NCBI RefSeq assembly: GCF_037892425.1
Contig: NZ_JBBKTT010000001.1
Coordinates: forward strand, 3,658,001-3,722,000
From: Lacibacter sp. H375
GTDB lineage: Bacteria; Bacteroidota; Bacteroidia; Chitinophagales; Chitinophagaceae
DNA length: 64,000 nt
Direction: 5' to 3'
Below are positions 30,132 to 60,986 of this stretch, in pieces. A program made the position numbers and the translations under genes. Position 1 is the first letter of the stretch, and each line of letters begins with the position of its first letter. Under the pieces are notes generated by a model. The model was not told where the DNA came from. It did not search any database and saw nothing but the letters and a program-made list of their open reading frames with translations.

Positions 30132-31415
30132 ATGAAACTCATCATACTCGGTGGCGGCTTCGGTGGTTTACGGTTAGCGAATCTTCTCAGCAATAAAGAA
30201 GGGATCGACATTACTCTCATTGACAGGTTTAACTATCACCAGTTTCAACCTTTGTTTTACCAGGTGGCAACAGCAGGGCTAGATGCATCGAACATTTCGT
30301 TCCCTCTACGTAAAGCTTTTCAAAAAAGTAAGAATGTGCGTATCCGTATGGCAGAAGTGGAGCGTATTGATACAGTTGCCAAACAAGTGATCACAAATGA
30401 AGACACTTATACCTACGATTATCTTGTAATTGCTACCGGTGTTTCCACCAACTTCTTCGGCAATAAGAACCTGGAAGAACATGCATTCCCAATGAAAAGT
30501 ACTGTGGAAGCATTACAGCTGCGTCATAAACTCATACACAATTTTGAAGATGCATTGCATGCAGACAATAAAGATGAATTACAACGCTTAATGAATGTGG
30601 TGGTTGTGGGTGGCGGACCAACAGGTGTGGAACTGAGTGGCGCTATTGCTGAAATGAAAAAATATGTGTTGCCGAAAGATTATCCTGAACTCGATTTCAG
30701 CATGATGAATATTTATTTGCTCGAAGGCACAGGCAAAACTCTTGCAGCCATGAGTGAACAAAGCAGTGCACATAGTTTAAACTATCTGCAACGATTGGGT
30801 GTTACCGTTATGACCAATTCTTTGCTGCAGGATTATGATGGCGAAAATGTAACTCTGAAAGATGGTACAAGCATTCCTTCTAAATTAGTCATATGGGCGG
30901 CAGGTATCAAAGGAAATATTCCGGCAGGTATTGACCCTTCCTTAATTGCACGAGGCAACCGTATTAAAGTAGATGAGTTCAATTTTGTGCAGGGACTTAA
31001 CAATGTATTTGCCATCGGCGATATTGCATATATGGAAGAAGAACAATTTCCCAATGGTCATCCACAGGTTGCACCCGTTGCCATACAGCAGGCCACATTA
31101 CTGGCAGCAAATTTGCTGAATCTGCGACAAGGAAAAATTGCAAAAGCATTCCGATACAAAGACAAAGGTGCTATGGCAACTGTTGGTCGCAACCTTGCTG
31201 TGGTGGATGTGCCAAAACCAAAGCTCCACTTCGGTGGTTTCTTTGCATGGCTCATCTGGATGGGTCTGCACCTCATGTTGATCCTTGGTGTAAAGAACAG
31301 GTTCTTTGTGTTTACAAACTGGTTGTATAATTATTTTACTTACGATCAGAGCTTGCGGTTGATCTTTAAAGAGTTTTATAGAAGAGAAGGAGAGGAGAAG
31401 GGAATTGGGAATTAG
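30132..31415 (+). CDS. ndh: Type II NADH dehydrogenase (NAD(P)/FAD-dependent oxidoreductase)
   Basis: 427 residues. FAD-binding GGGFGG at 7-12, NAD-binding VVVGGGPTGVELSG near 157-170, and the second FAD phrase VFAIGDIAYM near 295 define the NDH-2 group. The C-terminal hydrophobic helices (FFAWLIWMGLHLMLILG and after) anchor it to the inner face of the membrane. It oxidises NADH and reduces quinone without pumping protons. The last residues and the stop codon (GGAATTGGGAATTAG) are part of a short direct repeat that continues downstream. Confidence 0.93.
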   Translation: MKLIILGGGFGGLRLANLLSNKEGIDITLIDRFNYHQFQPLFYQVATAGLDASNISFPLRKAFQKSKNVRIRMAEVERIDTVAKQVITNEDTYTYDYLVIATGVSTNFFGNKNLEEHAFPMKSTVEALQLRHKLIHNFEDALHADNKDELQRLMNVVVVGGGPTGVELSGAIAEMKKYVLPKDYPELDFSMMNIYLLEGTGKTLAAMSEQSSAHSLNYLQRLGVTVMTNSLLQDYDGENVTLKDGTSIPSKLVIWAAGIKGNIPAGIDPSLIARGNRIKVDEFNFVQGLNNVFAIGDIAYMEEEQFPNGHPQVAPVAIQQATLLAANLLNLRQGKIAKAFRYKDKGAMATVGRNLAVVDVPKPKLHFGGFFAWLIWMGLHLMLILGVKNRFFVFTNWLYNYFTYDQSLRLIFKEFYRREGEEKGIGN

Positions 31416-31443
31416 GATTTGGGAATTAGGATTTGGGAATTAG
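31407..31443 (+). repeat. 14-base tandem repeat overlapping the ndh stop codon
   Basis: GGGAATTAGGATTT occurs at 31407-31420 and 31421-31434 and again partly (GGGAATTAG) at 31435-31443; a further GGGAATT precedes it at 31400. The first unit supplies the ndh stop codon. Confidence 0.85.
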
Positions 31444-31530
31444 TAATTAGTAAGCAGGTAGATAAGTATAGATGTAGATAAGTATTCAGTCGGAAGCTTG
31501 TCAATTTTCTGAATAAAAGTAATTGATGAA

Positions 31531-45715: not shown

Positions 45716-46744
45716 TTAGCTAAACCAACACTTTGGTGTTACTGATTTTTCAAAACCAGCTTTTGTTACAGCCATATCAAAATTCTTCAAAACAGAATAG
45801 CCGCCATAGTCGCCTTTTTTATTGATGGCAATAAAACCAACCTGCACATTCTTTGCATTGGTTCCATTGTTCTTTACAATTCTTCTTACCGCTTCTTTGC
45901 AGGCTGCTTCAGGAGTTGCACCGTTGCGCATCATTTCAACCACAGTATGTGCACCACATATCTTAACTACTTCTTCTCCAACACCTGTAGCCGATGCAGC
46001 ACCTACTTCATTATCTACAAACAAACCTGCACCAATAATAGGAGAGTCGCCAACACGTCCACGCATTTTATAAGCCATCCCGCTTGTTGTACAGGCGCCA
46101 CTTAAATTTCCTTTGGCATCAAGCGCTACCATACCGATGGTATCATGATTCAGCAAAGCAACCGGCCATGGGTAAGGTTCAGGTTCATTCTTTTCATTTT
46201 GCTTTTTTTCTAACAGGTTAGGAATGATCATGGGGTCGTACTTCGATGTCTTTAACCATTCCTTCCACATTTTTTCGGCTTCTTCTGTTAACAGGTTTTC
46301 TTTTTTAAAACCCTTGCTTAATGCAAACTGCAAAGCACCATCACCCACCAATTGCACATGTGGTGTTTGTTCCATCACCAATCTTGCAACATTTATGGGA
46401 TGCATTATATGTTCAAGGTGCATCACAGCACCGCATTGTCCTTTCTCGTTCATGATGCAAGCGTCAAGCGTAACTCGTCCATCACGGTCGGGGAGACCAC
46501 CATAACCCACGCTGATATCAGCAGGGTCTGCCTCAGGCACCATCACGCCTGCTTCCACCGCATCAAGGGCACGGCCGCCTTTACTTAAAATCTTCCAGGC
46601 ATCCTTGTTGGCTTTCAGGTTGGCTCCCCAGGTTGATACTACAATCGGGCCTTTACCCGATTGGGCACTGCCGGCAAAGCTTTCGGTTGATAATAAAGCA
46701 GTTGAGAGACCGGTGAGCTGTATAAATCGTCTTCTGTTTAGCAT
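45716..46744 (-). CDS. N4-(beta-N-acetylglucosaminyl)-L-asparaginase (isoaspartyl peptidase/asparaginase 2 family)
   Basis: 342 residues with a twin-arginine signal (NRRRFIQLTG) at residues 3-12, so exported folded. Ntn-hydrolase: the proenzyme cuts itself before T202 in NHDTIGMVALDAKG, giving alpha and beta chains; GACTTSGMAYKMRGRVGDSP supplies the substrate-binding residues. The enzyme splits the GlcNAc-Asn bond left over from N-glycoproteins. Length fits glycosylasparaginase. It heads a minus-strand group with cutC and a HEAT-repeat gene. Confidence 0.93.
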   Translation of the reverse strand: MLNRRRFIQLTGLSTALLSTESFAGSAQSGKGPIVVSTWGANLKANKDAWKILSKGGRALDAVEAGVMVPEADPADISVGYGGLPDRDGRVTLDACIMNEKGQCGAVMHLEHIMHPINVARLVMEQTPHVQLVGDGALQFALSKGFKKENLLTEEAEKMWKEWLKTSKYDPMIIPNLLEKKQNEKNEPEPYPWPVALLNHDTIGMVALDAKGNLSGACTTSGMAYKMRGRVGDSPIIGAGLFVDNEVGAASATGVGEEVVKICGAHTVVEMMRNGATPEAACKEAVRRIVKNNGTNAKNVQVGFIAINKKGDYGGYSVLKNFDMAVTKAGFEKSVTPKCWFS

Positions 46745-46878
46745 AGATTTCAGATGTTAATGAGCGGTGAATGTAAGATGATTTTAAAATTTTTCAAGCT
46801 TTCCTTTAAACCTTCTTGATGGGCTGTGGTCTGTAATTACGTATCTGAAAACAAAATAAAAAACTTAAAAATCACCAC

Positions 46879-47271
46879 ATGAAGAAGCTTATCATTTTAT
46901 CCGTAGTTGCAATGGCAGCCTTTGTTTTTTCAATTAATGAATCTGCTGCACAAACCAGGCGCAAGCTTGATCGTAAAGAAAACCGTGTTGATCGTCGTGA
47001 AGACGTTCGTGACCGAAAAGAAGATGTACGTGACCGTCGTGAAGATGTAAAGGACCGCAGAGAAGACGTTCGTGATCGCAGAGAAGATGTACGTGATGCG
47101 AAGCACAATGGTGGCCGCAGAGATCGTATTGAAGATGTACGTGACCGTCGTGAAGATGTGAGAGATCGTAAAGAAGATGTTCGTGATCGTCGTGAAGACA
47201 AGCATGACCGCAGAGAAGATGTGCGTGACCGTAAGGAAGATCGCAGAGACCGTAAGCGTGGCCGTTTCTAA
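46879..47271 (+). CDS. Secreted low-complexity protein of charged seven-residue repeats
   Basis: 130 residues. Signal peptide about 1-24 (MKKLIILSVVAMAAFVFSIN, then ESAAQ). The mature part is built of about 14 repeats of seven residues, D-R-[RK]-E-D-V-[RK], broken once by KHNGGRRDRI near residues 75-83, and ends KRGRF. Arg, Lys, Asp and Glu make up most of it; there is no aromatic residue except the last. At DNA level the unit is 21 bases. It could form a long single alpha-helix with alternating charge or an unordered polyampholyte in the periplasm. No family name is recognised. Its own terminator follows, so it is monocistronic. Confidence 0.8.
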   Translation: MKKLIILSVVAMAAFVFSINESAAQTRRKLDRKENRVDRREDVRDRKEDVRDRREDVKDRREDVRDRREDVRDAKHNGGRRDRIEDVRDRREDVRDRKEDVRDRREDKHDRREDVRDRKEDRRDRKRGRF

Positions 47272-47312
47272 TCATATAAAACCCTATGCTAGTGAACTCT
47301 TCCCATATCCTG

Positions 47313-47346
47313 GGGTAACATGAAAATGTTACCCTTTTCTATTTTT
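47313..47346 (+). terminator. Intrinsic terminator after the charged-repeat gene
   Basis: GGGTAACAT (47313-47321) pairs with ATGTTACCC (47326-47334) around a four-base loop, followed by TTTTCTATTTTT. Confidence 0.9.
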
Positions 47347-47405: not shown

Positions 47406-48017
47406 TCAATGAATCCTGTCGCCCCTTATCTCCATCCGTTGCATCAACTCTTTTTCAAACGCCAACCATTCTTTCCATCGGTCACGCACTTTCTTTTTAG
47501 GAAGATAATGTTCAGCCATGGTGATGAACAAGGTATAATGTCCGGCTTCGCTTTCCATAAACTTGCGGTAGAATTTGCGTAGATAAGCATCGTTCAATCC
47601 TTCGCTCAATCGTTTAAAACGTTCGCAACTGCGGGCCTCAATTAATGCCATTGTCAATAGTTCATCAAGAAAACGATCATCCACGTGTCCACCTTTTTTC
47701 TGGAAGGTCAATAACTCATTTACATAAATATCTTTTCGTTGACGACCGAGTTTCAATCCACGTTTGTGCAGCTCAGCAAGTACGGCACGGAAATGTCCCC
47801 ACTCTTCAGTAACAATAGGAGCCAGCTCCGTTATCAGCAATTCATATTGACTATAACGTTGAATAAGTGTAATGCAGGTGGTGGCGGCTTTCTGCTCACA
47901 ATAAGCATGATCGGTTAATATATCTTCCAGTGAAATGGCCGTAAGATCGACCCAGCGTGGATCGCTGGGTAGCTGCAGGCCGAGTATGTTTTTTACATCA
48001 ATTGATTCCTTCTCCAT
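47406..48017 (-). CDS. miaE: tRNA-(ms2io6A)-hydroxylase, MiaE-like
   Basis: 203 residues. A ferritin-like diiron enzyme that hydroxylates the isopentenyl group of the modified adenosine at tRNA position 37. Diiron ligands are visible: E41 in YCEQKAA, E72 and H75 in EEWGHFR, E127 in LIEARSCERF, and E157 and H160 in ESEAGHY. Length is usual. A perfect -7 box (TATTTTTG) ends four bases before the ATG and a hairpin lies just behind it. Confidence 0.93.
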   Translation of the reverse strand: MEKESIDVKNILGLQLPSDPRWVDLTAISLEDILTDHAYCEQKAATTCITLIQRYSQYELLITELAPIVTEEWGHFRAVLAELHKRGLKLGRQRKDIYVNELLTFQKKGGHVDDRFLDELLTMALIEARSCERFKRLSEGLNDAYLRKFYRKFMESEAGHYTLFITMAEHYLPKKKVRDRWKEWLAFEKELMQRMEIRGDRIH

Positions 48018-60537: not shown

Positions 60538-60986
60538 CGTACAATTGTTTAAAAGTGTGAACTGATAAATACAATACTGACGCTAACGATACTGAACTGA
60601 TAACCTGACTAAACTAACATGTAATACTGATGCTGAAACTGAGCACTCACCGGCAACGTTGTAACAAGAATCTGTGAGGCAGTTGCTTGCCGGTTTAATT
60701 AGAGACTTGGTGAAGATACGGAAAGTAAAAAGGAAATGGCAAAAAAGAAGGCACAAGGTACAAGGGACAAGGTGCAAGAAGGAAAATCCAAAATCCAAAA
60801 AAGAAGGCGCAAGGTACAGGGGACAAGGTGGAAGGAACAAGAGCCAAAGCCCGATAAACAACCTCCAAAAAAAGGATTGTTTATTATAATTCGGCGGTCG
60901 TTGTTGTACGTAAAGTTAATCGTGGTTTTGTAGGTTTGTTTTATAACCTTCAATTCAAAAAACAATCACTACATACGAAATCTGCC
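60538..60986. other. Intergenic stretch with low-complexity sequence and a hairpin
   Basis: 449 bases. 60550-60650 is rich in ACTGA-like words; ACCGGCAA (60649) and TTGCCGGT (60687) form an eight-base inverted pair; 60741-60848 is a CAAG-type repeat; ATAAACAACCT (about 60854) pairs with AGGATTGTTTAT (about 60871) with one bulge. Open frames on both strands here are made by the repeat and are not genes. Confidence 0.6.
60741..60848 (+). repeat. Intergenic CAAGGTACAAGG-type repeat
   Basis: Two internal copies of GAAGGCACAAGGTACAAGGG-like sequence (about 60747 and 60803) separated by AATCCAAAATCCAAAA. AAGGTGCAAGAAGGAA at 60769-60784 recurs exactly at 63284-63299. Confidence 0.75.

Follow-up and report, generated by a model that had tools for sequence, protein, structure and literature searches.

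Positions 46879–47271 (+) of the window, i.e. of the whole 64,000-nt stretch of Lacibacter sp. H375 DNA analysed here, are occupied by a complete gene coding for a protein of 130 amino acids (plus stop codon) that contains two arrays of charged heptads. The start originally proposed for this gene, 46951, corresponds to codon 25 (Q), while its open reading frame actually begins at 46879. Both flanking genes, coding for an asparaginase (45716–46744) and for MiaE (47406–48017), are located on the opposite strand, so the gene is monocistronic by layout, as had been predicted. The predicted terminator likewise has a counterpart in a stem-loop resembling an intrinsic terminator, followed by a T run, at 47312–47335 (+). 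Its stem is kept in six aligned relatives from the genus, some of which show changes on both sides (judged by eye and unscored). A search of the genome indicated that the heptad gene is present in a single copy.

The N-terminus of the protein is hydrophobic and reads as a signal peptide comprising residues 1–24 (46879–46950, +) and ending in ...ESAA|QT, with an AQ dipeptide at the putative cleavage site. According to the available part of PMC5837995, signal peptides of Bacteroidota are followed by Q at position +1 (“Q-rule”), an export pattern which the protein, with its predicted signal peptide, fits. Hydrophobic N-termini were found in all 43 Bacteroidota members of the family and in 35 of the 36 other members by a simple hydrophobicity score, which had partly guided the choice of start codons as well. 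An AQ dipeptide at residues 16–40 was matched by a lax pattern in 43 of 43 Bacteroidota members, and a lipobox-like pattern in one of the 43 and in one of the 36 others. The signal-peptide-like N-termini across the family support the prediction that the protein is exported.

The predicted mature chain contains arm 1 (residues 31–72; 46969–47094), a nine-residue hinge with the sequence DAKHNGGRR (residues 73–81; 47095–47121), arm 2 (residues 82–123; 47122–47247), and the C-terminal tail DRKRGRF (47248–47268), all encoded on the forward strand. A single run of about 14 heptads had been predicted; the heptads are indeed present, but as twelve full units of the pattern D..E[DN].., six on each side of the hinge, plus a partial 13th unit. 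The hinge shifts the heptad register by two residues. It went unmentioned in the original prediction, as did the symmetry of the arms, the promoter motif and the spread of the family. Tandem Repeats Finder detected a 21-nt period, equivalent to seven amino acids, on either side of the hinge. In other parts of the window, the same program reported a short tandem array with a 56-nt unit with AAGGCACAAGGTAC (60740–60848) and tandem 7/14-nt GGGAATT units (31400–31450).

Pairwise comparison of eight copies from the genus gave dN/dS values of 0.045–0.18 for the repeat region in 25 of 28 pairs, the remaining three pairs being saturated. Among the twelve units of the window gene, synonymous divergence (pS 0.68) exceeds nonsynonymous divergence (pN 0.21), suggesting that the protein pattern rather than the DNA repeat is conserved. 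Both observations argue against a chance repeat, and the gene is real and under purifying selection. Frameshifts within the repeat of homologues, which had been named as evidence against the prediction, were not seen in the genus copies, and the one genus member without a hinge (L008/L114) lost it, along with several heptads, in frame.

Relatives of the heptad protein and symmetry of their arms

A scan of GTDB contigs yielded 89 relatives, of which 80 were kept. Judging by record titles, these comprise 43 from Bacteroidota, 17 from Omnitrophota, eight from Planctomycetota, five from Proteobacteria, one each from Lentisphaeria, Thermoanaerobaculia, Gemmatimonadaceae and Elusimicrobia, and three without a phylum name. 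The search for the same heptad in related genomes, as suggested in the original prediction, thus returned relatives in the genus, in the bacterial family, and in several phyla. Matches were obtained in 10 of 14 genus genomes at E ≤ 1e-3, one of them (G008) spurious. In a sample of 296 genomes from the phylum, seven had a match at E ≤ 1e-6, and three of these matches are weak. For the bacterial family, the 55 of 294 genomes matched represent an upper bound, because matches at E of about 1e-9 to 1e-3 partly reflect other heptad styles or low complexity. The distribution of the gene is patchy. Many of the members from Planctomycetota and Omnitrophota are longer than the window protein.

Five weak matches from the same bacterial family (L029–L033) have two arms built from other heptads (DRRDIHQ, DKKDINA) around different hinges, and may be convergent or very distant. 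The copy from a genome labelled Thermoanaerobaculia (L079) resembles those of Saprospiraceae, possibly due to a binning error or a transfer. In the Omnitrophota genome that harbors locus L070, a second profile match (L139; E 1.9e-25, open frame of 438 aa) is located on another contig; in the other 15 genomes of that comparison, the matches lie within one gene each. Several long Omnitrophota members (L061, L070, L073, L092, L104) carry N-terminal charged repeats, LRxxNPExFxE and HPExAxKxY, which look like separate uncharacterised repeat families.

The view that the protein belongs to no known family agrees with the database searches. No Pfam or NCBIfam model matched the window protein at cut-off, weak sub-cut-off matches being the only ones, and a sequence search of the PDB gave no match. 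The strings REDVRD, EDVRDAKHDGG, RREDVRDRRED, DRREDRRDRRED and DAKHDGG were not found in the literature searched, which likewise yielded nothing on the heptad protein or on DUF3106.

For the analysis of arm lengths, 14 repeats of proteins already counted were removed from 115 loci. Among the 101 distinct proteins left, 17 were set aside, namely nine with fewer than five heptads, six cut by contig ends, and two with a single run (L008, L115). In the remaining 84 proteins, parsed with the pattern D..E[DNG].., the arms are equal in 67, ranging from 3+3 to 10+10 heptads, and unequal in 17; in 77 they differ by at most one heptad. Shuffling of the second arms among the proteins (10,000 trials) produced a mean of 17.1 and a maximum of 31 equal pairs. 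In a thinned set, 55 of 69 proteins have equal arms, compared to 13.4 on average and at most 27 after shuffling. A hinge is found between the arms in nearly all relatives, across phyla. It is typically nine residues long, with the motif AxHxGG; nine members have hinges of 10, 15 or 44–48 residues, and eight of these nine are still equal-armed.

Comparison of the 59 members whose nearest relative has other arm lengths revealed the same difference in both arms in 33 cases, a difference in one arm only in 15, and unequal differences in both arms in 11, the tally counting members, not independent events. Since both arms mostly differ by the same number of units, the heptad copy number is not free. 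The idea that the DNA unit allows copy-number change therefore holds insofar as heptad number varies between species, but not in the sense of free variation. We know of no mutational process that would make two arms equal. Equal arms of 3–10 heptads are what a hairpin would require, and together with the hinge they suggest an antiparallel helical hairpin rather than one free helix.

Charge pattern and predicted fold

The mature chain has a fraction of charged residues of 0.78 and a net charge of +9 (46 K+R, 37 D+E), consistent with its description as a highly charged polyampholyte; it lacks Cys. In the window heptads, acidic residues occupy positions 1, 4 and 5 (apart from a single N at position 5), positions 2, 3 and 7 are mostly basic, and position 6 is mostly V; family-wide, the acidic nature of positions 1, 4 and 5 is partly built in by the D..E[DNG] parse. 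The charges had been described as alternating. Instead, they segregate to two faces of the helix, with charge moments of 0.51 and 0.53 for the two arms, as compared to maxima of 0.39 and 0.38 in 2,000 shuffles. Charge pairs at i+3/i+4 are mostly repulsive (arm 1: 18 favorable, 33 unfavorable; arm 2: 20 favorable, 36 unfavorable); shuffled arms have 27–29 favorable pairs, i.e. more than the real ones, and an ideal EEEEKKKK helix of equal length has 67 favorable and 10 unfavorable pairs. The stable single helix considered originally was rejected on these grounds in its ER/K form, because opposite charges four residues apart do not give a net favorable balance. The face-segregated charges and repulsive pairs would rather indicate a helix that depends on a partner, be it within its own chain or in another.

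With an alignment of 40 sequences, AlphaFold predicted a helix at residues 2–77, a break at 78–79 (GG) and a second helix at 80–127 for the full-length protein (mean pLDDT 89.5, pTM 0.45). The same two helices were predicted from a 93-residue arm–hinge–arm alignment of 44 sequences (pLDDT 65, pTM 0.33). The models thus predict helix–GG–helix but do not show the arms to be packed; neither had a match in a Foldseek search against the PDB. Two equal heptad helices connected by a turn, the layout of an antiparallel coiled-coil hairpin, are found in the arm counts (67/84) and in the models, the second of which is of low confidence.

Covariation between the arms is suggestive only. At heptad position 5, the choice between D and N in unit i of arm 1 is correlated with that in unit i+1 of arm 2 for i = 3, 4 and 5 (phi 0.85, 0.89 and 0.59); for i = 2 phi is −0.02. 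The four strongest inter-arm information pairs have residue sums of 157–164; those of the fifth and eighth pairs are 171 and 124. Mean coupling along the fixed distances 23, 30 and 58 exceeds that of the best mirror sum, as would be typical of direct repeats. Among the 720 permutations of the arm-2 units, mirror order ranks 42 when all positions are pooled, and 12, 28 (at another offset), 54, 420 and 498 for positions 2, 7, 5, 6 and 3, respectively; with 25 sequences chosen more strictly, the corresponding ranks are 49 for all positions and 4, 214, 54, 452 and 441.

A predicted ECF sigma factor promoter

Upstream of the window gene, a −35-like element, TTAAACC (46806–46812, +), and a −10-like element, GTC (as part of GTCTG; 46829–46831, +), 16 nt after AACC and 47 nt before the ATG, constitute a predicted ECF sigma factor promoter. 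The base preceding GTC is G, not C. In the genus orthologues, the spacing between the two elements is constant, whereas the motif lies at varying distances from the ATG. As far as the available parts of the sources go, ECF sigma promoters have AAC at −35 and CGT at −10 (PMC8103513, PMC3426412), with a spacer of 16 ± 1 nt in one ECF group (PMC3426412), and a CGT-box motif of a flavobacterium has been ascribed to an ECF sigma factor (PMC9723704). The TTAAACC-N16-GTC of the window conforms to this pattern (AAC at −35, CGT/GTC at −10, 16 ± 1 nt).

The motif is enriched in the family. AACC-N16-GTC was found in 34 of 90 family upstream regions and in 3 of 314 controls (Fisher p 1e-21), the latter being upstream regions of ORFs of at least 180 aa at the same loci, with uncurated starts. 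At spacings of 12, 14, 15, 17, 18 and 20 nt, the two elements occur in 0, 0, 0, 1, 2 and 0 of the 90 regions; when spacings of 15–17 nt were allowed, 35 occurrences were found as compared to 2.1 expected from shuffled upstream regions. The variant TAAAC-N17-GTC is present in 48 of 90 family but 6 of 314 control regions, and within the family in 43 of 54 regions from Bacteroidota but 5 of 36 from elsewhere. TAAAC-N18-GTC occurs in seven of 90 and in none of 314, indicating that the spacing is not fully strict. In a leave-one-out matrix analysis, 38 of the 90 family regions scored above the value reached by 1% of the controls. From the form and the enrichment of the motif we infer that the heptad gene is probably switched on by envelope-stress ECF sigma factors.

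The genome of strain H375 contains 11 matches to TTAAACC-N16-GTC and nine to the reversed control, which means that the raw count says little. Of the 11, for which alone the position relative to genes was determined, seven, including the one of the window gene, are situated 22–82 nt before a gene, and all seven genes code for exported proteins or lipoproteins, as judged from their N-termini by eye. The stricter pattern TAAACC-N16-GTCTR has six matches against one in the control, and five of the six belong to those seven. At 224.5 kb of contig C1 (L155), a gene coding for a secreted-looking protein of 242 aa with T/V/K repeats (VNLNLNSTTSAVTKATVSTTKVADVV...) is preceded by TTAAACC-N16-GTCTG at a distance of 62 nt and may be a member of the same regulon.

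Outside the Bacteroidota, some members of the family are genetically linked to genes of predicted sigma and anti-sigma factors. An ECF sigma gene lies at most 1.8 kb away, in the same orientation, at 8 of 35 non-Bacteroidota loci examined (a raw count over part of the ORFs present), i.e. L054, L061, L066, L070 and L099 from Omnitrophota and L081, L095 and L115 from Proteobacteria; the sigma neighbor at L095 matches region 4 alone. A zf-HC2 anti-sigma gene follows the sigma gene at L054, L066 and L070, with scores over the cut-off, and at L099 with a score just under it (21.2 vs 22.2 bits). A gene of the DUF3106 family lies between the anti-sigma gene and the heptad gene at L054, L066 and L070. 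EF-hand genes adjoin at L081 and L095, and the sigma cluster of L081 includes a Metal_resist gene. L061 and L092 also have the promoter motif; L092 and L099 are from one assembly and are perhaps two ends of one gene.

Among the neighbors examined in Bacteroidota, no conserved operon was seen. The families listed, 25 of 53 for 68 Bacteroidota neighbors and 25 of 42 for 37 further neighboring ORFs, include no sigma family; the commonest Bacteroidota neighbors listed are a deoxyhypusine synthase-like protein (7/68), peptidase M28 (six) and asparaginase (four). In the genome of strain H375, 28 matches to sigma-70 region 2 (27 over cut-off) were checked without finding a cognate ECF sigma/anti-sigma pair. 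Five of the 28 genes have a lax motif match upstream, and one of them, L169, was judged plausible. It was rejected because its orthologues do not co-occur with the heptad gene across the genus: L169 orthologues (E ≤ 1e-60) are present in five of 14 (G000, G003, G004, G008, G011), including G004, which lacks the heptad gene, and G008 with its spurious match, whereas L169 is missing from six genomes with the heptad gene (G001, G002, G006, G009, G010, G013).

Possible function of the proposed charged hairpin

The explanation we favor, to which we would give about an even chance, is that the heptad protein is an exported, antiparallel charged hairpin which is induced by an ECF sigma factor and serves as an ATP-independent effector of the envelope stress response; arm packing, sigma factor use and activity are all proposed from the patterns described above. 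Damage to the envelope would be sensed and would release an ECF sigma factor, which in turn would have the heptad gene transcribed on demand, and the small charged hairpin would accumulate outside the inner membrane, in the periplasm or further out. Its two equal, charge-segregated arms, joined by the conserved turn, would bind one another or a neighboring molecule, held mainly by salt bridges instead of a hydrophobic core. The hairpin would then shield or hold unfolded or aggregating material, most likely as a charged shield or a chaperone-like rod resembling Spy, which is an ATP-independent periplasmic chaperone. Spy, CpxP and Metal_resist proteins (LTXXQ-type) are small, exported, helical and charged, and are tied to envelope or metal stress. 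The heptad protein is likewise small, charged and exported-looking, and a member of its family (L081) lies next to a sigma cluster that contains a Metal_resist gene; however, the window protein does not match those Pfam models and differs in its strict heptad array and equal arms. DUF3106 (PF11304) proteins, encoded next to family members at the three Omnitrophota loci mentioned, are also exported-looking and have charged repeats, but the repeat is another one, the gene is separate, and the window protein has no DUF3106 match.

Because EF-hands recur with the family, the main rival is a role in binding and buffering divalent cations or metals, which we regard as unlikely. The ligands for Ca2+, Mg2+ or a transition metal would come from the acidic stripe D1-E4-D5 that runs along each arm and from the hinge His. 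Cations may also zip up the two arms, and metal or divalent stress may be what the ECF system senses. EF-hands are fused to 9 of the 30 non-Bacteroidota members scanned, D and E prevail where the alignment of 40 members is invariant, and the EF-hand genes next to L081 and L095 and the Metal_resist gene of the L081 cluster point in the same direction. The window protein itself, however, is rich in basic residues, has no Cys and no Pfam EF-hand match, and has a hinge which on our own reading is unlike the canonical EF-hand loop; moreover, some members have another residue in place of this His, e.g. V in L086 and F in L025.

A structural rod of the envelope or matrix would be in keeping with the charge-segregated helix faces, with changes in arm length by whole heptads that mostly keep the symmetry, and with the Gly-rich or repeat extensions of some long members. 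Stacked through faces of opposite charge, the hairpins would build fibres or layers; alternatively, they would bridge polyanions such as LPS or capsule. The number of heptads would set the length of the rod. Its probability is low nonetheless, given the absence of an obvious anchor (the lipobox-like pattern being confined to the two members noted above) and the patchy presence of the gene in the genus and in the phylum sample.

A disordered polyampholyte acting in hydration or in protection from acid or desiccation, with an incidental hinge, would account for the high fraction of charged residues, and secreted stress proteins of such composition exist. Group 3 LEA and Asr-type polyampholytes resemble the heptad protein in their very high charge and stress context. 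Equal arms, a recurring hinge, a strict register and non-random charge faces would be unexpected in a disordered chain, and the “hydrated tangle” envisaged originally leaves the first two of these unexplained. In addition, the repeat of group 3 LEA proteins (LEA_4) is an 11-mer (PMC12871917, available part), while the heptad protein has a period of 21 nt or seven amino acids, a hinge and symmetric arms, and no LEA family is among its Pfam matches up to E = 1; we consider such a protectant improbable. A free single α-helix (the earlier suggestion), of ER/K type and serving as a spacer, is hardly credible: like known single α-helix proteins, the heptad protein has a long charged repeat and long helices predicted by AlphaFold, but its charges are face-segregated with net repulsive intrahelical pairs, the GG break is predicted mid-chain, and the arms are equal around a central hinge. 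By the tests made, the heptad protein is thus classified as neither an ER/K helix nor a LEA protein nor an LTXXQ/Metal_resist protein.

Beyond the charged envelope-stress hairpin favored above, a more far-reaching proposal, tentative and in our opinion rather doubtful, is that the protein represents a new architecture, a charge zipper without a core, in which equal arms of 3–10 heptads would pair antiparallel through salt bridges between their charge-segregated faces, around a conserved His-x-Gly-Gly turn. Selection would keep the arms equal while their length drifts. Depending on ions or pH in the envelope, the rod would assemble or fall apart, and would thereby combine the roles of sensor and shield within an ECF sigma circuit that spans phyla. 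Hairpins of natural origin, graded from 3+3 to 10+10 heptads, would allow charge-driven helix pairing to be tested in the absence of a hydrophobic core. What marks out the family, which is absent from the family libraries searched, is the equal length of the heptad arms on both sides of a conserved hinge, together with the kind of regulator predicted. It appears to be an undescribed group of helical stress proteins that are exported, and its promoter motif could serve to map the envelope-stress regulon of Chitinophagaceae.
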